From contig NZ_CP073695.1 of the NCBI RefSeq assembly GCF_018228765.1, positions 1,364,001-1,428,000 of the forward strand: a stretch of DNA of 64,000 nt. The letters run 5' to 3'. Made by a program: the position numbers and the translations under genes. The notes beneath the pieces are model-generated. The model made no database searches. It saw only the letters and a program-made list of their open reading frames with translations, and was not told the DNA's origin. Positions 24,843-43,050 of this stretch are shown here, one piece after another. The stretch's first letter is position 1, and the number at the start of each line of letters is the position of its first letter. The stretch comes from Halorubrum ruber. GTDB lineage: Archaea; Halobacteriota; Halobacteria; Halobacteriales; Haloferacaceae.

Positions 24843-24932
24843 CCCGGCCGGATCGCCGGATCGCCGCGGGACCCCGGCGGGGGTTCGAGGCTGAACCACG
24901 GGGTTGAGGCCCCGCCGGTGAGACCGATCGGT

Positions 24933-25340
24933 ATGCCAGTCGCGACGGTCGGCGAGACGGCGACCAACGAGGTAACGGTGACCGAGGAGACGATCGAGGC
25001 GTTCGCGGAGCTCTCGGGCGACGAGAACCCGATCCACCTCGACGACGAGTACGCCGCCGAGACGATGTTCAGCGGCCGCGTCGCGCACGGAATCATATCC
25101 GCGGCCGTCGTCTCCGGAGCGCTCGCGCGGCTCTCCGGCGACATCGTCTACCTCTCTCAAGACCTCTCTTTCGAGAAGCCGGTCTACCCCGGCGAGACGG
25201 TCGAAGCGAGCGTCAGCGTCATCGACGACCTCGGCGGCGACCGGCTCGCGGTCGAGACGACTGCGACCGTCCCGGAGCGCGACGAGCGCGTCCTCTCGGG
25301 CGAGGCGACGGTGCTGTCGGTGCCGCACGGCGACGAGTAA
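24933..25340 (+). CDS. MaoC-like (R)-specific enoyl-CoA hydratase
   Basis: Single hot-dog fold of 135 residues. The FAELSGDENPIHLDDEYA segment supplies the catalytic Asp and His of the hydratase-2 motif, and FSGRVAHGIISAAVVSGAL follows as in PhaJ-type proteins. Such enzymes hydrate trans-2-enoyl-CoA in fatty-acid breakdown or polyhydroxyalkanoate synthesis. The ATG at 24933 (MPVATVGET) is taken as the start. It lies upstream of, and convergent to, a thiolase-fold synthase, separated from it by a structured repeat. Confidence 0.87.
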   Translation: MPVATVGETATNEVTVTEETIEAFAELSGDENPIHLDDEYAAETMFSGRVAHGIISAAVVSGALARLSGDIVYLSQDLSFEKPVYPGETVEASVSVIDDLGGDRLAVETTATVPERDERVLSGEATVLSVPHGDE

Positions 25341-25940: not shown

Positions 25941-26996
25941 TCAGCCGTGCCACCGAACGACGGTCGCGGACCACGTGTACCCCGTTCCGGCCGCGAGCAG
26001 GCAGACGAGGTCGCCCGGTTCCAGCCGACCCGTCTCGACGCCGCGCTCCGTGGCCAGCGCCTGGTCGACGCTCTGGACGTGGCCGTACTCGTCGAGGTAG
26101 TAGCCGTCGCTCGCTGGGTCGAGCCCGAGCTCATCGAGGACGCGCTCGTGGAACGACCGCTTCATGTGGGTGAGCGCGACGTAATCGAGGTCGTCGCGGT
26201 CGAACCCGGACCGCTCCAAGGCGGTGTCGGCGACCGAGAGGTACGCGGGCAGCGACACCGGCCCCAAACGCTCCTTCATCCCCTCCGGGTCCGGGACGTC
26301 GAGCGTGTGGAGCCCCTCGCGGACGGTTTCCTCGCTCGGCGGGCGCTTCGATCCCCCGGCGGGCATCACCACGTCGTCGGCGAACGAGCCGTCGGTCTCC
26401 GCCGCGCTCGCGCGGACGGTCGCCCGCGCTCGGCCGTCGAAGGGGTCGCCGTCGGCCGACCCGTCCCCGCCGTCGTCGACCGCCTCGACCACGAACGCGC
26501 TCGCGCCGCTGCCGAAGTTGAACATGAACGAGCTGTCCTCGTTGCCGTAGTCGACGAGGTCCTCCTCGCGGCTGGCGGCGACGAGCAGCGCGGCGTCGAT
26601 CGGCTCCGTCTCCAGCTGGGCGGTCACCTGCCGGAGCGCGATCGGCGCGCCCGCACAGAGCGTGTAGCTCTCGGTCGCATAGGCGTTCGTCGCCCCCAGC
26701 CGGTCGGTGATCGCCGCCGCCGCCGACCAGACGACGTGGTCCTTGTACTCGGAGCCGTGGTAGACGACGACGTCGAGGTCGGTCGGGTCGACGTCCGCGT
26801 CCGCCAGCGCGGCCTCGGCCGCCTTCACGGACATGTCGGTCGCGTGGTCGCCGTCCGGCGGGCAGACGCGCTTCTCGCGGACGCCCATCTTCTCGACGAC
26901 GACCGCCTCCGGGATCCCGCTCTCCGCGGCGATCGCTTCGCCCGTGACGGTCTCGTCCGGGACGTACGTCCCGAGTCCGGTGATCCCGACGGTCAT
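25941..26996 (-). CDS. Thiolase-fold condensing enzyme (KAS III/HMG-CoA synthase-like)
   Basis: A 351-residue protein with the two-lobed ketoacyl-synthase III fold. It starts MTVGITGLGTYVPDETV. The catalytic cysteine is Cys114 in YTLCAGAP, the histidine lies in LTHMKRSFHE (about 276), and the position usually held by Asn is occupied by His in DEYGHVQSVD (about 304). These features place it near archaeal HMG-CoA synthase or FabH-like enzymes, condensing acyl-CoA units, but the Asn-to-His change makes a classical FabH reaction doubtful. Neighbouring acyl-CoA genes (MaoC hydratase, acyl-CoA synthetase) fit acyl-CoA chemistry. Confidence 0.8.
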   Translation of the reverse strand: MTVGITGLGTYVPDETVTGEAIAAESGIPEAVVVEKMGVREKRVCPPDGDHATDMSVKAAEAALADADVDPTDLDVVVYHGSEYKDHVVWSAAAAITDRLGATNAYATESYTLCAGAPIALRQVTAQLETEPIDAALLVAASREEDLVDYGNEDSSFMFNFGSGASAFVVEAVDDGGDGSADGDPFDGRARATVRASAAETDGSFADDVVMPAGGSKRPPSEETVREGLHTLDVPDPEGMKERLGPVSLPAYLSVADTALERSGFDRDDLDYVALTHMKRSFHERVLDELGLDPASDGYYLDEYGHVQSVDQALATERGVETGRLEPGDLVCLLAAGTGYTWSATVVRWHG

Positions 26997-27146: not shown

Positions 27147-28478
27147 CTACCGGAGGTAGCGCCGCAGGTGGTCAGGGAGCCGCTTCCCGACGGTGCCGCC
27201 GAGCCGGTCGCGCAGGGTCCCGAGGATGCCGTTCGGGACGAACAGCACGAACAGCACGAAGATGATCCCGAGGTACAGCGGAGCGCGCCCGTCGACGGCC
27301 GTGTTGACGAACAGCTCCAGGCTGACCCCGAAGAGGTCGGTCTCGTAGACGCCCTCCGGGATCCCCTCGCGCAGCAGGGTCGCTATCCCGCCGCTCTCGG
27401 TGGAGAGGACGTCCTCTAACCCCTGCGTGAACAGGGTGCCGTACACCGGCCCCGCGAGGGTGCCGAACCCGCCGATGATCGTCGTGATCAGCGCGTCCGC
27501 GGTGACGAGGAAGTAGAACGTCCCGTCGGGTGCGACCGACCGGGAGTACGCCGCGAAGACGCCGCCGGCGATCGCCCCGAAGAAGCCGCTGATCGCGAAC
27601 GCGGCCAGCTTGAACCGGTAGGTCGGGTAGCCGACGGCGCGGGCGCGCTCCTCGTTCTCGCGGATCGCGACCATCACGCGGCCGAACGGCGAGTGGACGA
27701 TCCGCTGCATCGCGAAGTAGCAGACGACGACCACGATCCCCAGCGCGTAGTAGGAGACCACCGTCGCCGACAGGTCGATCCCGAGCCCGAGCAGGTTCTC
27801 GACGCTCTCGCCCGTCAGCCGCCCCAGGTTGAGGCTCAGCGCGTCGATGTACGGGACGCCGACCGCGAGCGCGTCGCCGCTCACGGTCGTTCCCTCCGTC
27901 GGGTTCGAGGAGACGTACCCCCACGAGCGGATCAGCTCGTAGATCACCTGCGCGAACCCGAGCGTGATCATCGCGAAGTAGACGCCCGTGAGCCGGAACG
28001 ACACCGACCCGATCACGATCGCAAGCAGGCCGGCGAGTACCGCCCCGAGCAGGAGCGTGATCATGAACGGCGTCCCCGCGGGGATCCCCGGAACCTGCCC
28101 GTTCGCGGCGAGGACGACGAAGTACGCGCCCGTGCCGTAGAAGGCCGCGTGGCCGAAGGATAGGTACCCGGTGTACCCGCTGACGAAGTCGAAGCTCATC
28201 GCGAACAGCCCCATGTACAACACCGCGATCATGAACGTGACCGCGGGGAGGAACGCCTCGGCGAGCGTCGCGGCCGGCGTCGCGAGCAGCGCCTCGTAGA
28301 CGAGCGGGTACAGCAGGAACCCGACGATTACGGCCGCGTGGACGGCGTGATCCCGCAGGTGCTCGCGGAGCCCACCGGTCGCGGTCGACGGCGGTATCGG
28401 GTCCGTCTCGTCGACGGGAGCTTCTTCGCCGAGTGGAGCCGCTTCGTCGCTAAGCGAGTCGGAGTCGCTAATGGCCAC
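27147..28478 (-). CDS. livM: Branched-chain amino-acid-type ABC transporter permease LivM
   Basis: Second membrane subunit of the Liv-type uptake system. About ten hydrophobic helices start near residue 40, after an acidic leader of about 35 residues; GYLSFGHAAFYGTGAYF and the GGFGTLAGPVYGT segment are characteristic of LivM. The GTG start at 28478 overlaps the end of livH by 11 bases, indicating translational coupling. It is the last gene of the livJGFHM operon. 443 residues. Confidence 0.92.
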   Translation of the reverse strand: MAISDSDSLSDEAAPLGEEAPVDETDPIPPSTATGGLREHLRDHAVHAAVIVGFLLYPLVYEALLATPAATLAEAFLPAVTFMIAVLYMGLFAMSFDFVSGYTGYLSFGHAAFYGTGAYFVVLAANGQVPGIPAGTPFMITLLLGAVLAGLLAIVIGSVSFRLTGVYFAMITLGFAQVIYELIRSWGYVSSNPTEGTTVSGDALAVGVPYIDALSLNLGRLTGESVENLLGLGIDLSATVVSYYALGIVVVVCYFAMQRIVHSPFGRVMVAIRENEERARAVGYPTYRFKLAAFAISGFFGAIAGGVFAAYSRSVAPDGTFYFLVTADALITTIIGGFGTLAGPVYGTLFTQGLEDVLSTESGGIATLLREGIPEGVYETDLFGVSLELFVNTAVDGRAPLYLGIIFVLFVLFVPNGILGTLRDRLGGTVGKRLPDHLRRYLR

Positions 28479-29526
28479 CCACCTCCTCGACGCCGTAGAG
28501 CCCCTGCGGGCGGATGATCAGCATCACCACGAGCAGGAGGAAGATGGTCACCTCAGAGAGGCCGGGGAAGGCGACGATCCCGGTGGTGAACAGCCACGTC
28601 GTCACCGAGTCGGCGACGCCGACGATGCCCGCGGCGACGAGCGTTCCGGTGAAGCTGCCGAGCCCGCCGATGATGACGACGACGAACGCGTACAGCAGCA
28701 CGTCGACGCTCAGGAGGACGCTCGGCCCCCAGATCGGGTCCCACATCAGCAGGACGCCGCCGACCGCGGCGAGGCCGGTTCCGACGCCGAACACGACCGT
28801 GAACGCCTGCCGCACGTCGACGCCCAGCGCCTGGACCATCTCGGTGTCCTCGCTGCCGGCACGGATGTAGAGGCCGTACAGCGTCTTCGTCAGGAACGCC
28901 CAGACGGCGACCGCGACGACCGCGCCGATCGCGATCTCGAAGAGGTACAGCCGCCTGACGCCGATCCCGAGCAGGTCGGTCCGGCCGAGCAGCACGTCGG
29001 GGGTGGTCGCCATCGGCGCCTGCCACTGCGGGTTCGGCTGGATCCCGCGGAGCGTCAAGACGATCCGGGCCAGCTCCTCGATGACCAGCGAGACGCCGAA
29101 CGTCAACAGGATCTGGTAGGTGGGCGTGCGGTCGTAGATCGGTCGGATCAGCGTCACCTCCATCGCACTGCCGGCGGCGGTCGTGACCGCGAACACCAGC
29201 GCCAACGCGACGAAGAAGACGAGTATCGTCGCGACGGTTCCGGTGTTGGCGCCCACGACGAGGACGAGCACGAGTCCGCCGAGGTACGCGCCGACCATCG
29301 CGACCGCGCCGTGCGCGAAGTTGAGAACGCCCATCAGCCCGAAGACGAGCGTCAGACCGACGGCGATGGTGAAGTACACCGCGCCCTTGCCGATCCCCTC
29401 GACGAGCACGCGGGCGGCGGTCCGAAGCCCGTCGACCGCGCCGCCGGTCGCCAGCAGCGCGCCCGGGTCGACGGCGGAGGCGAGGGCCGCGGCGTCGACG
29501 AGAGCGGGGAGCGTTCCGGGGGTCAT
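28468..29526 (-). CDS. livH: Branched-chain amino-acid-type ABC transporter permease LivH
   Basis: First membrane subunit of the transporter, 352 residues with about eight to nine helices. GLTLVFGLMGVLNFAHGAVAMVGAY near the N-terminus and IIGGLGSFTGTLVAAGIVG near the C-terminus are typical LivH signatures. The ATG overlaps the end of livF by four bases (ATGA type). Substrate could be amino acids, urea, amides or carboxylates; the family alone does not decide. Confidence 0.93.
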   Translation of the reverse strand: MTPGTLPALVDAAALASAVDPGALLATGGAVDGLRTAARVLVEGIGKGAVYFTIAVGLTLVFGLMGVLNFAHGAVAMVGAYLGGLVLVLVVGANTGTVATILVFFVALALVFAVTTAAGSAMEVTLIRPIYDRTPTYQILLTFGVSLVIEELARIVLTLRGIQPNPQWQAPMATTPDVLLGRTDLLGIGVRRLYLFEIAIGAVVAVAVWAFLTKTLYGLYIRAGSEDTEMVQALGVDVRQAFTVVFGVGTGLAAVGGVLLMWDPIWGPSVLLSVDVLLYAFVVVIIGGLGSFTGTLVAAGIVGVADSVTTWLFTTGIVAFPGLSEVTIFLLLVVMLIIRPQGLYGVEEVGGH

Positions 29527-30221
29527 GCCGTTAGGTACCTCCGGATCCGCTCGTCGTCGCTCGTGACGCCGGCCGTCTCGCCCGCCTCGACGACGACGCC
29601 GTGGTCGACGAGGTAGAACCGGTCGGCGAGGTCCATCGCCAGCCGGAAGTTCTGTTCGACGAGGACCATCGTCGTGTCCGCGGAGGCCGCGCGGAGCGCC
29701 TCCACGACGTCCTCGACGATCTGGGGCGCGAGTCCCTCGCTCGGCTCGTCGACCAACAGCAGGTCGTTGTCGCCGACCATGCCACGGGCGATGGCGAGCA
29801 TCTGCTGTTGGCCGCCGCTCAGGTCGCCCGCCTCCTTGTCCGCGAAGCGGTCGAGCGCCGGGAACAGCTCGTACGCCTCCGCGATCCGTGCGTCCGGGTC
29901 GGCCGCCGAGTGCGCGGCGACGCGGAGGTTCTCCTCGACCGTGAGATGCGAGAACACGCGACGCTCCTCGGGTACCCAGCCCATCCCGCGGGCGGCGATC
30001 TCGTTGGGCTTCATCCCGGTCACGTCGGTCCCGTCGAACCGGACCGTTCCCTCGCGAGGCGGCGTCAGCCCGAGCGCGGTGCGGAGGGTCGTCGTCTTCC
30101 CGACGCCGTTCCGGCCGACGAGGGCGACGATCTCGCCCGCCTCGACCGACAGGGAGAGCCCCTGGAGGATGTGGCTCTCGCCGTAGTAGGTGTGGACGCC
30201 GTCGAGTTCGAGCAGGCTCAC
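29523..30221 (-). CDS. livF: Liv-type ABC transporter ATP-binding protein LivF
   Basis: Cytoplasmic ATPase subunit of 232 residues. Walker A GRNGVGKTT, the LivF-typical GWVPEERRVFSHLTVEENL, signature LSGGQQQMLAIARG and Walker B LLLVDEPSEGLAP are all intact. The GTG start overlaps the livG stop by four bases, and its own stop overlaps livH by four bases, showing a tightly coupled operon. Confidence 0.95.
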   Translation of the reverse strand: MSLLELDGVHTYYGESHILQGLSLSVEAGEIVALVGRNGVGKTTTLRTALGLTPPREGTVRFDGTDVTGMKPNEIAARGMGWVPEERRVFSHLTVEENLRVAAHSAADPDARIAEAYELFPALDRFADKEAGDLSGGQQQMLAIARGMVGDNDLLLVDEPSEGLAPQIVEDVVEALRAASADTTMVLVEQNFRLAMDLADRFYLVDHGVVVEAGETAGVTSDDERIRRYLTA

Positions 30222-31147
30222 GGCCGGTCACCTCCGAGGTCGGCGCGGCGCCCGGCTCGGGCGCCCACCTGTCGGCCGCCGTCGGTCGCGGCGTCGCTCT
30301 CGGCGGGGCCGTCCGCCGAGCCGCCGTCGCGTCCCGACTCCTCGCGGCCGTACCCGCCGAGGTACGCCTCCTGAACGGTCTCGTCGCCGCGCACGTCCTC
30401 TGGCGGTCCGTCGGCGATCAGTTCGCCGCGGTGGAGGACGGCGATCCGGTCGGAGATATCCATCACCACCTCCATGTTGTGTTCGATGAGCATCACCGAG
30501 TGGTCCTCCGCCACGTCCTCGATCAGCGCGACGACCTCGTCGACGCCCTCGCTCGACACGCCGGCGGTCGGCTCGTCGAGCAGGAGGAGGTCGGGGTCGC
30601 CGGCGAGTGCGACGCCGACCTCGAGGCTCCGCTTCTCGCCGTGGCTCAGGTTCTGTGTGACGGTCTCCGCCTCCGCCGCGAGCCCGATCCGCTCGAGGAT
30701 CGCCGTCGCCTCCGCGTAATGGTCCTCGAAGTCGGACACGTTGCGCCACAGCTTCCACGAGTCGTTCCCGCGGCTCGCCTGTGCGGCGACGCGGACGTTC
30801 TCCAGCACCGACAGCGTGGGGAACAGGTTCGTGATCTGGTACGACCGGTGGATCCCGGCCAGCGCCGTCTCGTCCGGCGAGGCGGCGGTGATGTCGAGCG
30901 CCGTGTCGTCCCCGGCCGACCCCGAGCCGTTGGAGCCGGTCGAGTCGGCTCCGCCCGCCGGATCGAACCGGATTCGCCCGTCGGAGGGCTCCAACACGCC
31001 CGTGAGCAGGTTGAAGAACGTCGTCTTCCCCGCGCCGTTCGGGCCGATGATCGAGCAGAGCTCGCCGGCCTCTAAGGCGAAGTCGACGCCGTCGACGGCG
31101 GTGATGCCGCCGAAGCGTTTCGTGAGCCCGTCGGTCTCCAACAGCAT
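30218..31147 (-). CDS. livG: Liv-type ABC transporter ATP-binding protein LivG
   Basis: Second ATPase subunit, 309 residues. Walker A GPNGAGKTT, signature LSHGEKRSLEVGVAL and Walker B LLLLDEPTAGVS are intact. Two features are unusual for LivG: a Gly/Ser/Asp-rich insert after the first beta strands (roughly residues 60-85) and a hydrophilic C-terminal extension of about 40 residues past the usual AYLGG end. Both look like halophilic linker growth. The ATG overlaps the livJ stop by one base (TAATG). Confidence 0.93.
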   Translation of the reverse strand: MLLETDGLTKRFGGITAVDGVDFALEAGELCSIIGPNGAGKTTFFNLLTGVLEPSDGRIRFDPAGGADSTGSNGSGSAGDDTALDITAASPDETALAGIHRSYQITNLFPTLSVLENVRVAAQASRGNDSWKLWRNVSDFEDHYAEATAILERIGLAAEAETVTQNLSHGEKRSLEVGVALAGDPDLLLLDEPTAGVSSEGVDEVVALIEDVAEDHSVMLIEHNMEVVMDISDRIAVLHRGELIADGPPEDVRGDETVQEAYLGGYGREESGRDGGSADGPAESDAATDGGRQVGARAGRRADLGGDRP

Positions 31148-32573
31148 TACAGCGAGCAGCCGGCGTCCTCTTCGGGGACCATCACATCCTCGGCGTCGAG
31201 CCGTTCGAGGGGCTCGCCGGGCATGATCGGCGCGTCCCAGGTCTCGGCGTACTCGTTGCTCGTCGGCACCGGCCACGCGACGGTCATCTTCGACGCCGCC
31301 TGGTTGTTGTGCTCCTGGAACGTGTACCCGTCCTCGCCCTTCGGCGTGTCCGTGACGGTCATCCCGCGCAGCGCGTCGGCGATGTCGGCGCCCTCGGTCG
31401 AGCCGGACTCCGAGACGGCCTGCGCGAGCGCCGAGGCCGCGGTGAAGGTGCCGGAGCTGAACAGGTCGGGCACGATGCCGTACGCGTCGACGTGCATCTG
31501 CCGGAACTCCTCGTTGATCGGGTTCTCGTACTGGTTCCAGTGGTACCGGCTGGTGAACGGACCGAGCCCGGCGTCCTTGATGTCCTGCGCGGTGAAGTCC
31601 TCGCCCAGGGCCGACTCGATCGTGCCGCCGATGAGCTGCGTCGTCAGCAGCGCCGCGAAGCCGCCGAACACCTGGACGTCGTAGGAAATGGCCGAGGTGA
31701 GGAACTGGGGCAGCGTCGACGCGGTGAAGCCGCCGACGACGCCCGTCGCGCCGTCGGAGACCGCCTGCTCGAAGAGCCCGTCGAACTCGGAGTAGCCGAC
31801 CTCGACGAACCGCGGTTCGAGGACGTCGATCCCCTGGCTCTCCAAGACCTCGGTGTAGTTGCTCGCGACGCTCTGCCCGAACGCGTTGTCGGACGCGAAG
31901 ATCGCGACCGTGTCGATGTCGAAGTTCTCGGCGACGTACGTCCCGCCCGCCCGCGCGTCCATCGCGGTGTGTTCGCTCGCGCGGAACGCCATCGGGTGAC
32001 AGAACTCGTCGCTCACGGTGATGCCGGCGTCGGCCGCGGGACCGATCAGGTACGGGACGTCCGTCTCGTCGACCACGGTGTCGATGAGCCGGCGCGCGCT
32101 GTCGGAGGAGGTCCCCCCGAACAGGATGTCGACCTCCTCGTCCAAGACGAGGTCCGTCGCGACGCTCTGGGCCGTGTCCGGGCTGAACTGCGTGTCCTCG
32201 ACGATGATCTCGTAGGTCGGGCCGCCCTCGGGCTCGACCGTGTACGTCCCCGGCGTCGCCTCCTCGATCGGGTCGAGGTCGTACTTGTACGCCAGCCCGG
32301 AGTAGAACCCGCGCAGGCTGATCTGCCCGTAGTACTGGAGGTCGCCGGAGGTCGGCTGGAGCGCCCCGATCCGGACCGTCTCGCCGGAGAGGTCGCCGCC
32401 GTCTGAGCCGTCTCCGCCGTCGGAACCGTCCCCGCCGTCCGATCCATCCCCGCCGTCGGAGCCGTCCCCGCCGTCCCCCCGCCGGAACAGCCCGCCAGTC
32501 CGGTGAGTCCGGCCGCGCCGACCGCGGCGCCGGTTCGTCGCAGATACGCTCGCCGTGTGTGGTCGTCTCGCAT
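31147..32573 (-). CDS. livJ: Liv-type ABC transporter substrate-binding lipoprotein LivJ, frameshifted near N-terminus
   Basis: Extracytoplasmic binding protein of the transporter. The natural start is the ATG at 32573: MRDDHTRRAYLRRTG is a Tat signal (twin arginine) and LTGLAGC is a lipobox, so the protein should be exported folded and lipid-anchored. After CSGG the frame is broken; adding one G to the G-run at 32475-32480 continues it into a GGDGSD repeat linker and then the type I periplasmic-binding fold (VRIGALQPTSGDLQYYG onward). Either an assembly error or a real frameshift. As written, only a signal-less version from 32577 is readable. About 475 residues when repaired. Confidence 0.85.
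32398..32480 (-). repeat. 18-bp tandem repeats encoding GGDGSD linker of LivJ
   Basis: About four and a half copies of an 18-base unit read on the minus strand as GGCGGGGACGGCTCCGAC with few changes. They encode the flexible acidic linker between the lipid-anchored cysteine and the binding domain. The tract ends in the G-run where the livJ frame is broken, so repeat slippage or homopolymer miscalling are both plausible. Confidence 0.7.
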
Positions 32574-32610
32574 ACACTGATCGAGGACGGACACCACCAT
32601 GAAGGGCCGA

Positions 32611-32624
32611 GTTAAGATGTTAAC
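32611..32624. promoter_or_regulatory. Palindromic site upstream of liv operon (GTTAA-N4-TTAAC)
   Basis: GTTAAGATGTTAAC is a perfect 5-bp inverted repeat with a 4-base spacer, 38 bases upstream of the livJ ATG at 32573. A near-identical site (GTTAACGTTTCAAC) lies exactly 38 bases upstream of the hydrolase ATG at 35909. The AT-rich site may overlap the promoter. Likely a binding site for a shared regulator, possibly the Bat-type protein encoded in between. Confidence 0.5.
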
Positions 32625-32740
32625 AGTCCGCGCGGATTCGACCGAATACGCCGGAAAAGGGGGCTGAACCGCGTTTCTCGAACGACACGCTAACGTGGTC
32701 GGATTCGCGTGCTCCCCGCGCCGGCAGTTCGCTCCGGACC

Positions 32741-33442
32741 CTATTCCAGTCGGTCGAGCGCGGCGACGACGCTGCGGAGCAGCTTCTTCTCGCCGCGGCG
32801 CATGTTCTTCGAGACGGCCGCGGTCGAGACGTCGAACTCGTCGGCGAGCGTCGACAGCGTCGCCTCGCGCGGCGACTCGAAGTACCCCGCGTCGGCCGCG
32901 GACTCGATGGTCTCGCGCTCGACGTCGGTCAGGTCGCGGCACGCGTCCAGCATCGTCGAGGCCGCGTTCGCGTTCCGCATCGTGTCGAACAGCGCCTCCA
33001 TCGACAGCTCAGAGCGGTCCTCGACGACGAACTCGTTACCCTTCTCGAGGTCGTGGAGCGCCGCCTCGGTCGTCGCCTCGTCGTCGAACCCGACCTGCCA
33101 GCGCTCGGAGCCGTCGGCGATCAGGAAGGGGCCGGTGATGTAGCCGCCGTGGTCCGTGATCGTCGACATCGCGTTCGTCTCCTCGATGACTGTCCGGATG
33201 ATGGCGGTGCCGTCCTCCTTCGAGAACAGGCTGTACTCGGCCATGTTCTCGTGGTTGCGGAGCGCCGAGAGCCCCTCGCCGAGCTCGTACCGGTCCGGCG
33301 ACTCGACGAGCAGCCGCGTCTCCAGCTGTTCCGCCGCCGTGTCCAACTGCCAGTGCATCGCGGAGAAGGAGACGTCGTGGTCGGCGGAGGTGTCGATGAA
33401 CGGGCAGTCGAACTGCTCCATATCCATCGTGACGTCGAGCAT
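32741..33442 (-). CDS. Bat-type HTH_10 transcriptional regulator
   Basis: Haloarchaeal regulator of the bacterio-opsin-activator family. The N-terminal about 150 residues resemble the Bat GAF/sensor-like domain; the C-terminal part (from about residue 155: LTDVERETIESAADAGYFESPR, then LSTLADEFDVSTAAVSKNMRRGEKKLL) is the HTH_10 DNA-binding domain. The ATG at 33442 (233 residues) is chosen since an upstream in-frame start would lie within the TATA box. It sits between the liv operon and the acyl-CoA synthetase operon, and could control both through the shared palindrome; this is inference from position. Confidence 0.88.
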   Translation of the reverse strand: MLDVTMDMEQFDCPFIDTSADHDVSFSAMHWQLDTAAEQLETRLLVESPDRYELGEGLSALRNHENMAEYSLFSKEDGTAIIRTVIEETNAMSTITDHGGYITGPFLIADGSERWQVGFDDEATTEAALHDLEKGNEFVVEDRSELSMEALFDTMRNANAASTMLDACRDLTDVERETIESAADAGYFESPREATLSTLADEFDVSTAAVSKNMRRGEKKLLRSVVAALDRLE

Positions 33443-33460
33443 GCCCCTCCTTATTGTCCG

Positions 33461-33470
33461 CATATATAAT
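33461..33470 (-). promoter_or_regulatory. TATA box of the Bat-type regulator gene
   Basis: ATTATATATG on the minus strand lies 19-28 bases before the ATG at 33442. The spacing predicts a transcript that begins at or very near the start codon. A GGAGGGG run just before the ATG looks like a Shine-Dalgarno site but would fall outside a leaderless mRNA. Confidence 0.6.
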
Positions 33471-33496
33471 GGTTGTTCCTGTGGAATCCGCGCCGC

Positions 33497-35101
33497 CTAC
33501 TCGCCGAAGCGCTCCTTCAGCGCCGCGCGGTCGATCTTCGAGGGGCCCGAGGTCGGCATCTCGTCGACGAACGCCAGCTCCTTCGGGATCGCGTACCGGG
33601 CGACGCGCGAGGCGAGGTGCGACTCCACGTCGGCGAGCGTCAGCGACTCGTCGCCGACGAGGATCGCCTTCCCGACCGTCCCCCACCGCTCGCTCGGCAC
33701 GCCGATCACGACCGCCTCCTCGATGTCTGGGTGGTCGGTGAGCGCGTCCTCGACGCGGGGCGGGTAGACGTTCTCGCCGCCCGAGACGAACATGTTCTTT
33801 TTCCGCCCCTCGATGTGGTAGTAGCCGTCCTCGTCGACGCGCGCGAGGTCGCCGGTCGACACCCAGTCGCCGAACGTCGCCGCCGTCTCCTCGGGCTCGT
33901 TCCAGTAGCCGTCGGCCGCGGCCGGCCCCGCGAGTTCCAGCTCGCCGACCGTGCCGTCGGGGACCGGGCCGTCCTCGTCGACGACGCGCGCGTCGACCGC
34001 GAGCGCCGGGACCCCGACGCTGGCGGTCTTCTCCGGCGGGAAGTCGTCGGGCATCGCGAAGTTGTTCGGCCCGCACTCGGTGAGCCCGTACCCCTGCGAT
34101 ATCTCGACGCCGCGGTCGCGCCACGCCGCGATGACGCTCTCCCGGCAGGGGCCGCCGCCGCTCTTCACGAACCGGAGCGAGGAGAGGTCGGTCTCGCTCC
34201 ACTCCTCGTGGCGGGCCATCATCCGCAACACGGCGGGCACCGCGACGAGGGTCGTCGCCGACTCGCGCTCGACGTCGCGCAGGACGCGGCCGGGGTCGAC
34301 CTCCGGGCTCAGCAGGATGCGCCCGCCCATCTGGAAGAAGGGGACCGTGAGCACGTTCCACCCGCCGGTGTGGAACATCGGGAACACCATCGGCGTCACG
34401 TCATCCTCGCGGAGCCCCCACGCCGTGATCGTGTTGAACGCGTTCCAGCGGATCGCACCGTGGCTGATCACCGTCTCCTTCGGGGTTCCGGTCGAGCCCC
34501 CGGTGTGCAAGAAGAGGTGCGGGTCCGAGAGCGACACCTCGGCGGTCTCGACCGGCGAGCCGTCCACGGGTAGATCCCGCGTGTACGACCGCCACGCGTC
34601 GTCGCCGTCGGTCGGGATCGATCGGACGGCGGGCTCGACGTCGGCCCGCTCTAACGCGTCGATGACGTCGCCCCCGAACGGGGCCTCGACGAGGAGCAGC
34701 TCGGGGTCGACGGTGCCTAACACCGCGGCGAGGTCGCGCTCGGCGAGCCGGTGCGAGAGCGGCGCCAGCACCGCCCCCGTCTTCGCGGTCGCGAAGAACA
34801 GGTCGACGAGCTCGACGCGGTTCCGCGAGACGACGGCGACGCGGTCGCCCGTCTCGACGCCGGCCTCGCGGAGGAAGCGCGCGGTGCGGTTGGCGCGCTC
34901 CTCTAACTCCGCGTACGTGTACTCGGCGTTCGCGGCCGTGTCGGTGACCGCGACGCGGTCCGGCGAGAGCCGCGCGCGGCGGGCGGACAGCGATCCGACC
35001 CAGTCGTAGCCGCGGTCGCCGTGCGGGTGCGGTCGCGGGTCGGCGTCGGCGGCGCTTCCGTCCCCGCGGTCGTCCGCCTGGGGATCGTTCTCCGTCGCCA
35101 T
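33497..35101 (-). CDS. Acyl-CoA synthetase (AMP-forming, ANL superfamily)
   Basis: Activates a carboxylic acid with ATP and CoA. The 534-residue protein shows the AMP-binding loop HTGGSTGTPK (about 198), GYGLTECGP (about 340), the STGDLARVDEDGYYHIEGRKK hinge region (about 414) and the catalytic lysine in GPSKIDR (about 519). An acidic 25-residue leader precedes the fold. Substrate is unknown; medium-chain or aromatic acids are typical of this subgroup. The gene begins one base after the hydrolase stop and shares that operon. Confidence 0.92.
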   Translation of the reverse strand: MATENDPQADDRGDGSAADADPRPHPHGDRGYDWVGSLSARRARLSPDRVAVTDTAANAEYTYAELEERANRTARFLREAGVETGDRVAVVSRNRVELVDLFFATAKTGAVLAPLSHRLAERDLAAVLGTVDPELLLVEAPFGGDVIDALERADVEPAVRSIPTDGDDAWRSYTRDLPVDGSPVETAEVSLSDPHLFLHTGGSTGTPKETVISHGAIRWNAFNTITAWGLREDDVTPMVFPMFHTGGWNVLTVPFFQMGGRILLSPEVDPGRVLRDVERESATTLVAVPAVLRMMARHEEWSETDLSSLRFVKSGGGPCRESVIAAWRDRGVEISQGYGLTECGPNNFAMPDDFPPEKTASVGVPALAVDARVVDEDGPVPDGTVGELELAGPAAADGYWNEPEETAATFGDWVSTGDLARVDEDGYYHIEGRKKNMFVSGGENVYPPRVEDALTDHPDIEEAVVIGVPSERWGTVGKAILVGDESLTLADVESHLASRVARYAIPKELAFVDEMPTSGPSKIDRAALKERFGE

Positions 35102-35102
35102 C

Positions 35103-35909
35103 TCAGGCGACCTCGCCGAGGAAGGTCCGGACCCGGTCGTTGACGCGCTCGCGCTCCTCGATGAAGAAGAGGTGCGGCCCGCCCTCGAACAGCTCGGCCT
35201 CGGCGTGCGGGAGCAGCTCCGCCAGCAGGTCGGCGTTCTCGACCGGGAGGACTCGGTCCGCGGTCCCGTGGAGTATCAGCGTCGGCACGGAGAGATCGCC
35301 GAGCCGGTCGCTCGCGTCGAACGCCGCCACCGCGGCCGCCTGCGCCTCGCGGCCCGCCGGCGTCGCGTCGCCCGCGAGCCGCCAGTCGACGATCCGGTCA
35401 ACGAGCTCCGGCTCGCGCTCGTAGAAACCGTCGGAGACCGCCGGCTCCATCAGGTACCGGACCCGCTCGCGGGGGTCGGCGTCCTCGGGCGCCGAGAAGA
35501 TGTGCTCTTGGACCTCTGGCGGCGTCGGGGCCGCGTCGTCGCCGCCCGGAGACGTACATAGCAGCGTCAGCGAGGCGACGCGGTCGTCGGCGAGTGCTAA
35601 CTCCTGCGCGATCATGCCGCCCATCGACGCGCCGCAGACGTGGGCCGCGTCGACGCCGCGGTCGTCGAGGACCGCGGCCGCGTCGGCCGCCATCTCGGCG
35701 ACGGTGTACGGTCCCTCCGGCACGTCGGAGTCTCCGGTGCCGCGGTTGTCCGGGCGGAGGACCTCGTAGTCGTCGACCAACGCCTCCGCGAGCCACCGCC
35801 ACATCCACCGGCCGTACCCGAGCCCTTCGAGCAGCAGCACGGTCGGTCCGTCGGGGTCCCCGTCGACGGCGTAGTCGATCGTCACGCCGTCGCGTGTCAC
35901 GCTTGGCAT
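35103..35909 (-). CDS. Alpha/beta-hydrolase fold protein
   Basis: About 268 residues. The nucleophile elbow CGASMGGM (Ser near residue 96), a strand LILHGTADRVLP carrying the acid, and GGPHLFF (His near 247) form an intact triad. The fold resembles esterases and 3-oxoadipate enol-lactonase-type hydrolases. The ATG at 35909 (MPSVTRDGVTIDY) is preferred over one 87 bases upstream, since it places the first beta strand normally and leaves the palindromic GTTAA site 38 bases upstream, as in the liv operon. First gene of the two-gene operon with the acyl-CoA synthetase. Confidence 0.87.
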   Translation of the reverse strand: MPSVTRDGVTIDYAVDGDPDGPTVLLLEGLGYGRWMWRWLAEALVDDYEVLRPDNRGTGDSDVPEGPYTVAEMAADAAAVLDDRGVDAAHVCGASMGGMIAQELALADDRVASLTLLCTSPGGDDAAPTPPEVQEHIFSAPEDADPRERVRYLMEPAVSDGFYEREPELVDRIVDWRLAGDATPAGREAQAAAVAAFDASDRLGDLSVPTLILHGTADRVLPVENADLLAELLPHAEAELFEGGPHLFFIEERERVNDRVRTFLGEVA

Positions 35910-35946
35910 ACCGTGATCGACCACGCCACGGCCCATCAACCCGCGT

Positions 35947-35960
35947 GTTAACGTTTCAAC
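35947..35960. promoter_or_regulatory. Palindromic site upstream of hydrolase/acyl-CoA synthetase operon
   Basis: GTTAACGTTTCAAC matches the liv operon site (GTTAA-N4-TTAAC) with one change in the second half, and lies at the same 38-base distance from its start codon. Read in the transcript direction the two are GTTGAAACGTTAAC and GTTAACATCTTAAC. This suggests common control of both operons. Confidence 0.5.
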
Positions 35961-37865: not shown

Positions 37866-39219
37866 TCCCCACTACCAGCCGCAGGATTTATGAATAAATA
37901 GATTGATATGTGAAATACAGATGGGGGATGTGATTCGCACCGTCAAAGTCAAACTTAACGTGCCCGAGGGGCGGTGCGACGACCTCCATCAGACGAAAGA
38001 GCAGTTCCTCCACTGTGCGAACACAACCGCAGCATGGGCGTGGCGACACCCGGACGAGCATTGCGTCACGTCGAAACAACAAGCCGAGAACGCGCTCTAC
38101 GACCGACTCCGGGACGAGACGGAGTTGACTGCGAACCTCGTCCAGAAGGGGATTCGACGCGCTATCGAAGCCACAAAAAGCGGTGTTGCCCGACTCAAAA
38201 AGGGCGAAACCACCAGTCAACCGCAGTTCGACGCGTGGAGCGTCGTCTACGACAAGCGCTCCGCGACGTTCCACCGCGACTACGTCTCTCTGTCCACGGT
38301 AAACGGGCGTGTCGAGTGTGAGTATATAATCCCCGATGACCCTGAGGGAACACCGATCGGCGAGTACCTGCTGAACGAGGAGTACGAGTTCCGGATGTCC
38401 ACGCTCCAGTACGACCGCTCGACCGACTCATTCTACCTCCACGCACGAATGCGCTGTACCACAGACGAATACGAGCAGTCCGCGGCTGCGTCTTCTAACG
38501 CCGAGCACAGAACAGTCCTCGGCGTTGATCTGAACGTGGACGGCTCGCTCGCCGTGACTTCAACGGGCGCGTTCATCGGGAACGCCGACGAGATGAACCA
38601 CCGACGCCGCGAGTTCGAGAAGACGCGCGGATCGATGCAACAGACGGGCACGCGGTCGGCGCACCTGTCGATCCAGTCGATGGATGATCGCGAACACTGC
38701 TGGATACAGGACGAACTCCATCGTGCTTCGAACCAGATTCTCGACGAAGCTCGCGATCACGGATGTACGCACGTCGCGTTCGAGAACTTGACCGATATCC
38801 GGGATCGGATGACTGGTGCGAAGCGATTCCACGCGTGGGCGTTCCGACGCTTGTACGAGTACGTCGAGTACAAAGCCGAGCTGCTCGATGTCGAGGTCGA
38901 GCAGGTGAGCCCGGCGTACACGAGTCAGCGGTGTTCGAAGTGCGGCTTTACACACGAGAGGAATCGGGGGTCGAAACACCAGTTCGCGTGTCAGAAGTGC
39001 GAGTACGAGCTGAACGCGGACTACAACGCGAGCAAGAACATCGCTCGGAAACTGATGAAACGACTCCATTCGGGGCAGAAGTCTTCGGATGGAGGCGCAC
39101 CCTGTCAGTGTGCGCTGACGTCAGGGATGGTGAACCTGAAGGGCGGATTCACCGCCAGCGTCGATTCGACGACAGAAGGGGAGTCCACTGACAAGCCCAC
39201 GACTTCAGTCGTGGGTTAC
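37866..39219 (+). mobile_element. Solitary tnpB insertion element of the IS200/IS605 group (IS1341-like)
   Basis: The element consists of tnpB only; no Y1 tyrosine transposase (tnpA) gene is present on either side. The 3' end is marked by the hairpin CCCACGACTTCAGTCGTGGG followed by TTA. The 5' end is uncertain; TTGAC at 37861-37865 resembles target motifs of this group and is the best guess for the left flank, but this is inference. Confidence 0.6.
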
Positions 39220-39222
39220 TGA
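37921..39222 (+). CDS. tnpB: TnpB, RNA-guided RuvC-type nuclease of IS200/IS605 group
   Basis: 433 residues from the ATG (MGDVIRTVKVKLNVP). The RuvC-like catalytic acids appear intact: Asp203 in GVDLN, Glu288 in FENLTD and Asp367 in NADYNAS. A zinc ribbon lies between the last two (Cys338, Cys341, Cys357, Cys360). TnpB proteins cut DNA guided by an RNA made from the 3' end of the gene and help keep the element after excision. The last codons (KPTTSVVGY) are overlaid on the right-end hairpin. A TTG 18 bases upstream is a weaker start. Base composition is slightly less GC-rich than in neighbours, consistent with transfer. Confidence 0.93.
   Translation: MGDVIRTVKVKLNVPEGRCDDLHQTKEQFLHCANTTAAWAWRHPDEHCVTSKQQAENALYDRLRDETELTANLVQKGIRRAIEATKSGVARLKKGETTSQPQFDAWSVVYDKRSATFHRDYVSLSTVNGRVECEYIIPDDPEGTPIGEYLLNEEYEFRMSTLQYDRSTDSFYLHARMRCTTDEYEQSAAASSNAEHRTVLGVDLNVDGSLAVTSTGAFIGNADEMNHRRREFEKTRGSMQQTGTRSAHLSIQSMDDREHCWIQDELHRASNQILDEARDHGCTHVAFENLTDIRDRMTGAKRFHAWAFRRLYEYVEYKAELLDVEVEQVSPAYTSQRCSKCGFTHERNRGSKHQFACQKCEYELNADYNASKNIARKLMKRLHSGQKSSDGGAPCQCALTSGMVNLKGGFTASVDSTTEGESTDKPTTSVVGY
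39196..39215 (+). ncRNA. Right-end hairpin and likely 3' end of the guide (omega) RNA scaffold
   Basis: CCCACGACT-TC-AGTCGTGGG forms a nearly perfect stem within the last codons of tnpB. In this family the guide RNA overlaps the 3' end of tnpB and its guide is the flanking DNA just past the element. Here that flank begins around CTGACGGACGCTGCCCTCC. In haloarchaea, sense transcripts overlapping the 3' ends of such genes are known. Only the hairpin is seen directly; the RNA is inferred. Confidence 0.6.
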
Positions 39223-39918: not shown

Positions 39919-41121
39919 ATGAAGGCGATCAAGGACAGCGTCCACGGCCACGTCCGGCTCGGCGACGTGGCCGCCGAGCTGGTCGACACGCCGGCGTTCC
40001 AGCGGCTGCGACACATCAAACAGCTGTCCACGGTCCGGCTCGTCTATCCCTCCGCGAACCACACCCGGTTCGAGCACAGCCTCGGCGTCTACCACCTCGC
40101 GCGCAGCGCGATCGACGGGCTCGGCGTCGACGACGACACGGCCGCGCACGTTCGGGCCGCGGCGATGCTACACGACGTCGGGCACGGGCCGTACGGCCAC
40201 CAGACCGAGGGGATAATCCGGCGCGCGACCGGGCGCGACCACGACGACGTGCGGTGGCTGCTCACCGACGCGGACCGCGAGGTCTGTCAGGTCCTCGAAC
40301 GCAACGGGCTCGACCCGAAACGCGTCGCCGCCCTGATCGACGGCGAGAGCGCGCTCGGCCCCCTCGTCTCGGGCGAACTCGACGTCGACCGCATGGACTA
40401 CCTCGTGCGCGACGCCCACCACACCGGCGTCCCGTACGGCACCGTCGACACCGGTCGGCTCGTCACCGAACTCCGGCTGATCGGCGGCGACGGGAGCGGG
40501 GCGTCCGCTGACCTCGTCTTGGCCGAGGGGAACGTCGCCACCGCCGAGAGCCTGCTCGTCGCGCGGTCGCTGATGAACGCCGTCGTCTACCGCCACCACG
40601 TCTCCCGGGTCGCGGGCGCGATGCTGGAGCGCGCCTCCGAGCGGTACCTCGACCGCACCGGGACGGACGTCGAGGCGTTCCGCGAGATGGCCGACCACGA
40701 CCTCCTCGTCGCGCTCCGCGACCGCGTCCCGGCGCTCGGCGAGCGCATCGAGCGGCGCGACCTCTACAAGCGCGCCGTCTGGGCCGGGATCGACGAGGTG
40801 CCGGCGGGGACGGTCGACGCCGGCCGCGCGGAGGAGCGGGCCGCGGAGCGCGAGATCGCGGACGCCGTCGGCGTCGACCGCGACGCGGTCCTCGTCGACA
40901 TCCCCTCGCGACCGGCGCTCAAGGAATCCGGCTCCGCGGTCGTCGTCGACGGCGTCCCCCAGCGGCTGGAGGACGCCTCCGAACTCGTGACCGGGCTCCG
41001 GGCGGCCGAGCGCCGCCGCTGGACGCTCGGCGTTTACTGCCCGGCCGAACGCGTCGACGCCGTCGCGGCCGCGGCGCGGGACATTCTGGGGCTGCGCGCG
41101 ACGGGACGACCCTCTGCCTGA
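39919..41121 (+). CDS. HD-domain phosphohydrolase (dNTPase/SAMHD1-like), paralogue 1
   Basis: Metal-dependent phosphohydrolase of 400 residues. Motifs: QRLRHIKQL, FEHSLGVYHLA (first His), LHDVGHGPYGH (HD) and LDVDRMDYLVRDA (distal Asp), in the order seen in dNTP triphosphohydrolases. It shares near-identical blocks with the gene at 41770 (VYPSANHTRFEHSLGVYHLA and SGELDVDRMDYLVRDA), so the two are paralogues flanking a Usp gene. The nucleotide substrate is not known. Confidence 0.9.
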   Translation: MKAIKDSVHGHVRLGDVAAELVDTPAFQRLRHIKQLSTVRLVYPSANHTRFEHSLGVYHLARSAIDGLGVDDDTAAHVRAAAMLHDVGHGPYGHQTEGIIRRATGRDHDDVRWLLTDADREVCQVLERNGLDPKRVAALIDGESALGPLVSGELDVDRMDYLVRDAHHTGVPYGTVDTGRLVTELRLIGGDGSGASADLVLAEGNVATAESLLVARSLMNAVVYRHHVSRVAGAMLERASERYLDRTGTDVEAFREMADHDLLVALRDRVPALGERIERRDLYKRAVWAGIDEVPAGTVDAGRAEERAAEREIADAVGVDRDAVLVDIPSRPALKESGSAVVVDGVPQRLEDASELVTGLRAAERRRWTLGVYCPAERVDAVAAAARDILGLRATGRPSA

Positions 41122-41168: not shown

Positions 41169-41573
41169 TCAGTCCTTAGCCGACACCGGGACGGTCAACA
41201 CGGGTCGGTCCGCGTTCAACACGACCGTCTGCGTGGTGCTGCCGAAGACCGCCTTGCCGGCCGGGCTCCGCTTGCGGCCCGACACGCAGATGAGGTCGAC
41301 GTCGGCGGCGTCGGCAGCCGCGATGAGCTCCTCGCCCGGATCGCCGCTCGCCTCGTGGTGGACGCAGTTCACGCCGGCGTCTTCCAGGATCTCCCGGGCG
41401 CGCCGCACGGCCCCGAGCTGGTGGACCGACGCCCCCTCCGGGTTATCCTGAAAGACGTGACAGAGGTGCGCGGTCACCTCGTCGGAGTCGCCCGGCAGGT
41501 CGACGACCGCTTCGGCCTGTGCCGTCGCCCGCGATTCGTCGTCAAGCCCGACGCCGATGAGTACGTCGTACAT
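41169..41573 (-). CDS. Universal stress protein-like
   Basis: 134 residues with the Usp fold: MYDVLIGVGLDDESRA at the start, DLICVSGRKRSPAGKAVFGSTTQTVVLNADRPVLTV at the end. The first glycine of the usual G-x2-G ATP motif is retained in GRKRSPAGKAVFGS. It lies on the opposite strand between two paralogous HD genes. A GATTTATCAC box 26-32 bases before the ATG and a perfect palindrome just upstream of it suggest a regulated leaderless promoter. Confidence 0.88.
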   Translation of the reverse strand: MYDVLIGVGLDDESRATAQAEAVVDLPGDSDEVTAHLCHVFQDNPEGASVHQLGAVRRAREILEDAGVNCVHHEASGDPGEELIAAADAADVDLICVSGRKRSPAGKAVFGSTTQTVVLNADRPVLTVPVSAKD

Positions 41574-41608
41574 ACGCGATCGTTCGCGCGGCCGGGTGAT
41601 AAATCGTG

Positions 41609-41622
41609 CCGCAAATTTGCGG
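41609..41622. promoter_or_regulatory. Perfect 14-bp palindrome beside the usp TATA box
   Basis: CCGCAAATTTGCGG is fully self-complementary and lies immediately upstream of the TATA box (about 41599-41605) of the minus-strand Usp gene. Its position over the BRE/upstream promoter element is typical for archaeal operators or activator sites. It also lies upstream of the divergent HD gene at 41770. Confidence 0.45.
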
Positions 41623-41769
41623 GCGACGGAATCGGTCGGGGGCGGAGTCGGATCGCGAGGAAATCGGGCCGCGGCGGAGTCGGCCCGCGAGGACAGCGGC
41701 CCGCAGCGGCGCTCCCCCGACCCGGGCGACACTCCCAGCCTTTTATCGCGTGCCGCCGAAGGCGGACGC

Positions 41770-43050
41770 ATGATCACGGTCAAGGACACCGTCCACGACC
41801 ACATCGAGATCGACGGTGTCGCCGCGGACCTCGTCGACACGCCCGCCGTCCAGCGGCTCCGGCACGTCAAACAGCTCGGCACGGTCCAGCTCGTCTACCC
41901 CTCCGCGAACCACACGCGGTTCGAACACAGCCTCGGCGTCTACCACCTCGCGAGCCGCGCGCTCGACCACCTCGGGATCGAGGGGAAACGGGCCGACCGC
42001 ATCGAGGCGGCGGCGATGCTCCACGACGTCGGCCACGGACCCTTCAGCCACAACCTCGAATCGCTCACCCACCGGCGGACCGGGAAGTACCACGACGACG
42101 TCGACGAGCTGCTCGCGACCGGCGCGGTCGGCGAGGTGTTGCGCGGCCACGACCTCGACCCGGACCGGATCGCCGGTATCGTCGCCGGCGAGGGGGCCTA
42201 CGCCGGGCTCGTCTCGGGCGAGCTCGACGTCGACCGCATGGACTACCTCGTGCGCGACGCCTACCACACGGGGGTCCCGTACGGCACCATCGACACCGAG
42301 CGGTTCGTCCGCGAGTTAACGTTCGTCGAGCGCGGCGCGAGCGCGGACGCCGACGGGCCGGCCAGCGCGGGGGGAGCCGATCGCGACGGCCCGGAGCTCG
42401 TCTTGGACGAGGGGAACGTCCAGACCGCCGAGAGCCTCCTGCTCGCCCGCGCGCTGATGAACCCGGTCGTCTACACCCACCACGTCGCGCGCATCTCGAA
42501 GGCGATGCTGCGCCGGGCCGCGAGCGAGCTCCTCGACGCGACCGCGACGACGGCCGCCGAGCTGCGCCGGATGGACGACCACGACTTCCTCGCCGCGGTC
42601 CGCGACTGCCGGGCGACAGCCGAGTTCGCCCGCCGGTACGACGAGCGCGACCTCTACAAGCTGGCGGTGTGGGCCGAGTACGACGACGTCCCCGACCGCG
42701 TCCACGACGCGGACCGCGCGGCCGAGACCGCCCTCGAACGCGAGATCGCTGCGGAGGCCGGCGTCGCCCGCGACCACGTGATCCTCGACGTGCCGCCCGA
42801 GCCGAAGATGCGCGAGTCGACCGCGCGCGTCACCGTCAACGGCGAGATACGGCGGCTCGAGCGGCAGTCGCCGCTGGTCTCCGCGCTCCGGACCGCGCAG
42901 CGCAACCAGTGGCGCCTCGGCGTGTACGCCCCCGAACCGGCGACCGACCGCGTCGGCCGCGCCGCCGCGGACGTGCTCGGCCTCGACCCCGAGGGGCTCG
43001 TGACCGAGGTGCGCGGCGCGATGCCGACGACGCTCGACGAGTTCGAGTGA
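41770..43050 (+). CDS. HD-domain phosphohydrolase, paralogue 2
   Basis: 426 residues, with the same motif series as the gene at 39919: QRLRHVKQL, FEHSLGVYHLA, LHDVGHGPFSH and LDVDRMDYLVRDAYH. It differs mainly by an insert around residues 195-215 (acidic, Ala/Gly-rich) and a longer C-terminus. The ATG at 41770 directly follows a CCGCC-GAA-GGCGG hairpin and lies about 28 bases after a TTTTAT box. Probably a nucleotide or nucleic-acid phosphohydrolase. Confidence 0.9.
   Translation: MITVKDTVHDHIEIDGVAADLVDTPAVQRLRHVKQLGTVQLVYPSANHTRFEHSLGVYHLASRALDHLGIEGKRADRIEAAAMLHDVGHGPFSHNLESLTHRRTGKYHDDVDELLATGAVGEVLRGHDLDPDRIAGIVAGEGAYAGLVSGELDVDRMDYLVRDAYHTGVPYGTIDTERFVRELTFVERGASADADGPASAGGADRDGPELVLDEGNVQTAESLLLARALMNPVVYTHHVARISKAMLRRAASELLDATATTAAELRRMDDHDFLAAVRDCRATAEFARRYDERDLYKLAVWAEYDDVPDRVHDADRAAETALEREIAAEAGVARDHVILDVPPEPKMRESTARVTVNGEIRRLERQSPLVSALRTAQRNQWRLGVYAPEPATDRVGRAAADVLGLDPEGLVTEVRGAMPTTLDEFE

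Follow-up and report, generated by a model that had tools for sequence, protein, structure and literature searches.

Paired Palindromes and a Bat-Like Regulator at a Liv-Type Transport and Acyl-CoA Activation Locus of Halorubrum ruber: A Predicted Small Regulon

Introduction

A stretch of 64,000 nucleotides (hereafter the window; positions 1,364,001 to 1,428,000 of contig NZ_CP073695.1), part of the 3.02 Mb single-contig genome of Halorubrum ruber, raises the question of whether two operons, one for a Liv-type transporter and one for a hydrolase and an acyl-coenzyme A (CoA) synthetase, are switched together through a palindrome standing at the same distance before each of them, and of which protein would read that palindrome. 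On the minus strand, the hydrolase and synthetase genes (35909-33497) are followed by a gene for a Bat-like regulator (33442-32741), which sits between the two operons as the original prediction had it, and by livJGFHM together with a ketoacyl-synthase-III-like gene (32573-25941). The answer favoured here, with good confidence and on the grounds of sequence comparison, is that a one-component Bat-like activator co-switches the uptake and the CoA activation of a carboxylic acid, as a dedicated small regulon.

Haloarchaeal regulators with a known operator are, to our knowledge, very few. The analysis provides an exact 14-bp site, the expected targets, namely two promoters (three with that of a MaoC-type dehydratase gene), and a candidate regulator; the predicted regulon is conserved throughout the order and can be tested in genetically tractable genera. 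The analysis also connects an acyl-CoA synthetase with an orphan transporter of the Liv type, which opens the search for the substrate through the inducer and the regulon together.

The Two Palindromes of the Window

Operator 1, the 14-bp palindrome GTTAAGATGTTAAC (GTTAACATCTTAAC on the minus strand), is located at 32611-32624, upstream of the livJ start codon (ATG at 32573-32571, minus strand), and operator 2, the near-palindrome GTTAACGTTTCAAC (GTTGAAACGTTAAC on the minus strand), at 35947-35960, upstream of the hydrolase start codon (ATG at 35909-35907, minus strand). The identical spacing claimed for them was found again, with exactly 37 bases between each site and its ATG, a distance previously given as 38 bases before the ATG. 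The shared GTTAA-N4-TTAAC frame stands for operator 1, whose arms are perfect, but not for operator 2, one arm of which carries a mismatch (GTTAA/TCAAC); the frame common to both sites is GTTRA-N4-TYAAC.

Exact matches to this degenerate frame, which was defined post hoc once the sites were known, number two in the window against 0.01 expected (0 of 100 shuffles), a significant excess, while a search of the window with two mismatches allowed returned two sites against 1.33 expected, which is not significant. Since the loose search is not significant and the frame was chosen post hoc, the argument needs comparative evidence. Over the 3.02 Mb genome the frame occurs four times, twice in this locus, and the reversed control pattern does not occur. 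The two remaining sites were rejected as regulon members, one being situated within an open reading frame (ORF) and the other about 90 bp beyond the nearest ORF predicted upstream of it, no ORF having been found downstream. A perfect consensus, TTAACATGTGAA, at genome position 302379 (L142, position 8880) stands a few bases ahead of a TnpB-like ORF and was judged to be a chance occurrence or part of an insertion element; this ORF resembles the TnpB-like ORF at 37903-39222 of the window.

Conservation and Genome-Wide Specificity of the Sites

Relatives of the regulator were sought in 119 Haloferacaceae genomes, and the gene neighbourhoods of those found were inspected. The cluster is kept in many genera, with variations in the order and the spacing of its parts. 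In the relatives, spread over numerous genera and several families, the hydrolase promoters carry GTTAACATGTGAA or GTTCACATGTGAA and the livJ promoters mostly GTTCACATGTTAAC, the typical 14-bp form being G-TTMACATGTKAA-C. The Halorubrum lineage has its own variants: the hydrolase promoter carries GTTGAAACGTTAAC or a near variant, and the livJ promoter GTTAACATCTTAAC. Nine further species of the genus have retained the site at the hydrolase and, wherever the contig extends that far, the one at livJ, with the same spacing. Across genera, 37 nt separate the palindrome from the hydrolase start in 39 of 46 cases, and 37-42 nt separate it from the livJ start in 43 of 46. In most other genera the MaoC gene is divergent from the hydrolase gene, the operator 2 palindrome being common to both, and the distance from this palindrome to the MaoC start is 36-37 nt in 28/28 scored divergent cases. 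The flanks around the palindromes are otherwise dissimilar between genera. At least 12 of the 14 positions match in 49 of the 57 upstream regions of the hydrolase and in 52 of the 60 of livJ; random 350-bp windows reach this level in about 3% of draws, a figure that includes true sites. The same sites and spacing were seen in families beyond the Haloferacaceae. This phylogenetic footprint is the decisive argument for regarding the palindromes as genuine control sites.

The motif is not common at random, with about two sites per genome. Within the family, 17 genomes with the regulator contain the form TTNACATGTNAA twice each, the inspected locations being the hydrolase and livJ promoters, and a genome with two copies of the cluster (G093) has four such sites. 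In G009 and G035 the cluster is split over three separate places, one each for the liv operon, the hydrolase-synthetase pair and the regulator, and in two other genomes (G067 and G020) its parts occupy two unlinked places; each operon nevertheless retains its site, which points to a common trans-acting factor rather than to the shared ancestry of one contiguous stretch. When the hydrolase-synthetase pair is relocated behind livM (G259, L197), its own site is gone and the liv site is retained, and in a genome possessing only a paralogous regulator (G044, L166) the palindrome of the hydrolase promoter has been lost. As a separate observation, the second whole-cluster copy of G093 (L171) has intact hydrolase and livJ operators and a regulator gene split into two frames.

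The Candidate Regulator

The Bat-like protein (gene at 32741-33442, minus strand, with an ATG at 33442) is very probably the binder of the palindromes. The domains found in it are only an HVO_2525_N domain (Pfam PF24279, E=1.9e-18) and a C-terminal helix-turn-helix (HTH) domain, HTH_10 (PF04967, E=6.5e-15, residues 178-229), and its closest named relatives all belong to Halorubrum. Its occurrence follows that of the sites: in counts uncorrected for phylogeny, at least two sites are found in 18 of 31 genomes of the family with the Bat-like gene versus 2 of 88 without it (p=3e-11) and, outside the family, in 39 of 131 genomes with the gene versus 0 of 101 without it, at least one site occurring there in 84 of 131 genomes with an HVO_2525_N/HTH_10 gene versus 13 of 101 without one (p=6e-16). 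An orthologous hydrolase (at least 54% identity) is present in 29 genomes, all of which have a Bat-like gene of the regulator's family. Together with the footprint, the genome-wide specificity and the unlinked operons, this co-occurrence gives strong support to the earlier idea of one regulator for uptake and acyl-CoA activation.

The operators also vary with the protein. When the recognition helix reads VSDT, the livJ sites end in ATATCAAC in 8/8 cases, against 0/33 for helices reading VSKP, VSTA or VSTT, and five of the eight genomes of the VSDT clade have the variant pattern GTTSGNNTATCAAC at the two promoters of the regulator locus and no more than one additional copy per genome. A fold search with the model of the regulator (pLDDT 86.6, pTM 0.63) gave no convincing match, nor did a sequence-based search of solved structures, so that the class of ligand is not readable from the sensor domain.

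Promoter Architecture and Mode of Action

At the hydrolase promoter, alignment places a conserved weak TATA-like element, TTGATGG, at 35933-35939 (minus strand), about 24-30 nt before the ATG; at the livJ promoter, ATGGTGG at 32594-32600 (minus strand), about 21-27 nt before the ATG, occupies the position that alignment suggests for the conserved TTGNNGG-like weak TATA element. Canonical TATA-like words were found in none of 26 hydrolase promoters and in two of 25 livJ promoters. The regulator appears to possess a separate promoter, with a putative AT-rich TATA-like box at 33462-33469 (minus strand), 20-27 nt before the ATG at 33442. Such a box occurs in the same interval in only 11 of 40 regulator promoters of the relatives, and the TATA contrast with the target promoters is therefore modest. 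In Haloferax, 72% of the protein-coding transcripts are leaderless, and TTWT and CGAAA have been proposed as the haloarchaeal TATA motif and B-recognition element (BRE), respectively (PMC4983044). If, like most haloarchaeal transcripts, those considered here are leaderless, the palindrome would fall roughly between -38 and -51 relative to the presumed transcription start, with TTGNNGG at the TATA position. The palindrome would stand directly upstream of the basal promoter, as do the upstream activating sequences (UAS) or palindromic sites of HTH_10 regulators, and from this position together with the weak TATA element we infer activation rather than repression.

According to the mechanism proposed, the Bat-like protein, transcribed from its own promoter, would bind both operators, most likely as a dimer, and recruit the basal machinery to promoters that would otherwise be weak. 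The N-terminal domain would sense an inducer, which might be the imported acid or the CoA ester derived from it, and on induction livJGFHM and the ketosynthase-like enzyme would be turned on together with the hydrolase, the acyl-CoA synthetase and, in most genera, the divergent MaoC.

Alternative Explanations

The closest competitor keeps a single regulator and makes it a repressor, the Bat-like protein blocking TFB/TBP from just upstream until an inducer releases it. The footprint and the co-occurrence would also fit a repressor, and the site adjoins the expected position of the BRE. This explanation is nevertheless unlikely, since the site is located upstream of the TATA position without overlapping it, the near absence of canonical TATA boxes from the target promoters fits dependence on an activator, and the HTH_10 relatives Bat, NarO and DmsR are mainly activators. 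Still less likely is the assignment of the sites to an unlinked regulator co-inherited with the cluster. Such a situation could be imagined for genera in which the Bat-like gene is distant from both operons (L069, L070), but this gene is the only regulator recurrently found in the cluster and accompanies every one of the hydrolase-bearing genomes, its helix class agrees with the operator class in 41/41 cases, and related palindromes adjoin its paralogs. Finally, the AT-rich character of the palindromes, their vicinity to promoters and the lack of significance of the loose pattern in the window alone could suggest ordinary basal promoter elements (BRE/TATA) or chance. This can hardly be entertained: the genome-wide counts, about two copies rather than hundreds, already contradict it, the sites are palindromic, kept across families and further upstream than TATA, and the hydrolase site disappears upon operon fusion (L197).

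Several observations weigh against a Bat-like activator acting on both operons. Besides the phylogenetic dependence inherent in the co-occurrence counts, the window's own sites have diverged from the common form (ATC/ACG cores), and some regulator-bearing genomes lack a strict site, owing either to drifted sequence or to a match with a paralog. The covariation of helix and operator corresponds to a single change on the tree and is therefore suggestive rather than independent support. In a genome with a regulator paralog (G117), a livJ-type promoter carries the other class of site, and the locus of the unlinked regulator in one genus (g10) contains no site, so that autoregulation is not general. 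The choice between activator and repressor, lastly, depends solely on the position of the site and the weak TATA element.

Transported and Processed Substrate

The product of livJ (31147-32573, minus strand; PF13458, E=3.7e-52) is a Tat-lipoprotein solute-binding protein which scores 39.5 bits with the NCBIfam branched-chain amino-acid model NF011933, far below the cut-off of 477, and its closest solved structures include 3n0x, 3nnd, 4ey3 and 4f06. Several of the solved solute-binding relatives of LivJ are binders of aromatic acids. The first gene of the second operon encodes an esterase/PcaD-like alpha/beta hydrolase (35103-35909, minus strand; PF00561, E=1.1e-29) and is followed by the AMP-binding acyl-CoA synthetase gene (33497-35101, minus strand; PF00501, E=1.1e-78), whose product has fatty-acyl/feruloyl-CoA synthetase (8weu/8wev) as its nearest solved structure. 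The suggestion that an acid or amide is carried by the Liv-type transporter, and not leucine-type amino acids, appears reasonable; the likely substrate is a carboxylic acid or an ester, perhaps an aromatic or acyl one. Several relatives have, between the synthetase and the regulator, a short-chain dehydrogenase-like gene recognized by sequence motif only; together with MaoC, it suggests a beta-oxidation-like route.

Comparison with Known Systems

No description of this regulon was found in a limited literature search, and the nearest described cases are the HTH_10 regulators NarO, DmsR and Bat. NarO and DmsR, which act in haloarchaeal denitrification and dimethyl sulfoxide respiration, are, in the accounts of Hattori 2016 given by PMC10062603 and PMC11218638, one-component regulators with a bacterio-opsin-activator-like HTH and no PAS/GAF domains, as is the regulator described here. 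They differ from the latter in its HVO_2525_N sensor domain and in its targets, transport and CoA activation. In Haloferax mediterranei, the promoters of the denitrification genes contain the palindrome CGAACATGTTCG, mutation of which lowers the activity of the nor and nos promoters, the regulator acting on this palindrome being left unidentified in that work (PMC10062603). An ACATGT (CATG) core is common to CGAACATGTTCG and to the sites of the present regulon, but the arms differ, CGAA/TTCG in H. mediterranei versus GTTNA/TNAAC here, and the sites are also positioned differently, 66-79 nt from three ATGs and 319 nt from a fourth in H. mediterranei versus 37 nt here. NarO itself presumably binds CGAA-N4-TTCG, and the present sites fall outside this operator class.

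Bat of Halobacterium is likewise a DNA-binding protein with a Bat-like HTH, but it possesses PAS/GAF domains, responds to light and oxygen, and works with Brz and Brb, whereas the regulator described here is devoid of PAS/GAF domains and is thus not a Bat proper. The UAS of bop differs in sequence from the palindrome of this regulon. As a UAS common to the bop and crtB1 promoters, it coordinates more than one operon (PMC3184054). In bacterial liv-like (HAAT) systems for the uptake of aromatic or organic acids, a Liv-type transporter is also genetically tied to an acyl-CoA synthetase; the type of regulator is archaeal in the present case.

Paralogous Regulators

Paralogous Bat-like regulators are located beside different liv-type or unrelated genes (L090, L091, L094, L095, L096, L097, L098), and at these loci GTTTACACGTCAAC, GTTCACATGTGAAC or GTTTACATATCAAC palindromes occur near start codons, some of them about 38 nt before one. 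These palindromes probably mark further regulons. More tentatively, and with a little less than even confidence, HVO_2525_N/HTH_10 proteins may be viewed as a large and hitherto undescribed haloarchaeal family of one-component activators that respond to ligands. Each paralog would govern a few-site GTT-N8-AAC regulon whose arms would co-evolve with two residues of the recognition helix, and the core member would drive a bidirectional promoter lying at equal distance (36-37 nt) from the start codons on its two sides. The variants of operator and helix encountered across families offer a handle on DNA recognition by HTH_10.

Other Features of the Locus

The remainder of the liv operon, all on the minus strand, comprises the ATPases livG (30218-31147) and livF (29523-30221) and the permeases livH (28468-29526) and livM (27147-28478), identified by domain search and, for livH, also from the conserved locus. 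The final gene of the conserved operon, the ketoacyl-synthase-III-like enzyme (25941-26996, minus strand), passes the cut-off of NCBIfam NF005308 (PRK06840), and the synthetase (33497-35101) is close to PRK06839; the numbers of these two models are neighbours, a hint that a comparable cassette exists in bacteria. The MaoC-type dehydratase (24918-25340, plus strand) was recognized by domain search and from the conserved locus.

In the assembly, livJ is frameshifted (32477-32484 of the window), the mature protein being in another frame than the Tat-lipoprotein signal (MRDDHTRRAYLRRTG...LAGCSGG). The livJ gene of the closest relative is in frame, with a single-base difference in a G tract; sequencing error, recent mutation and phase variation are candidate causes. 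Further along the window, two neighbouring similar HD-domain-like proteins (39919-41121 and 41557-43050) probably result from a tandem duplication.

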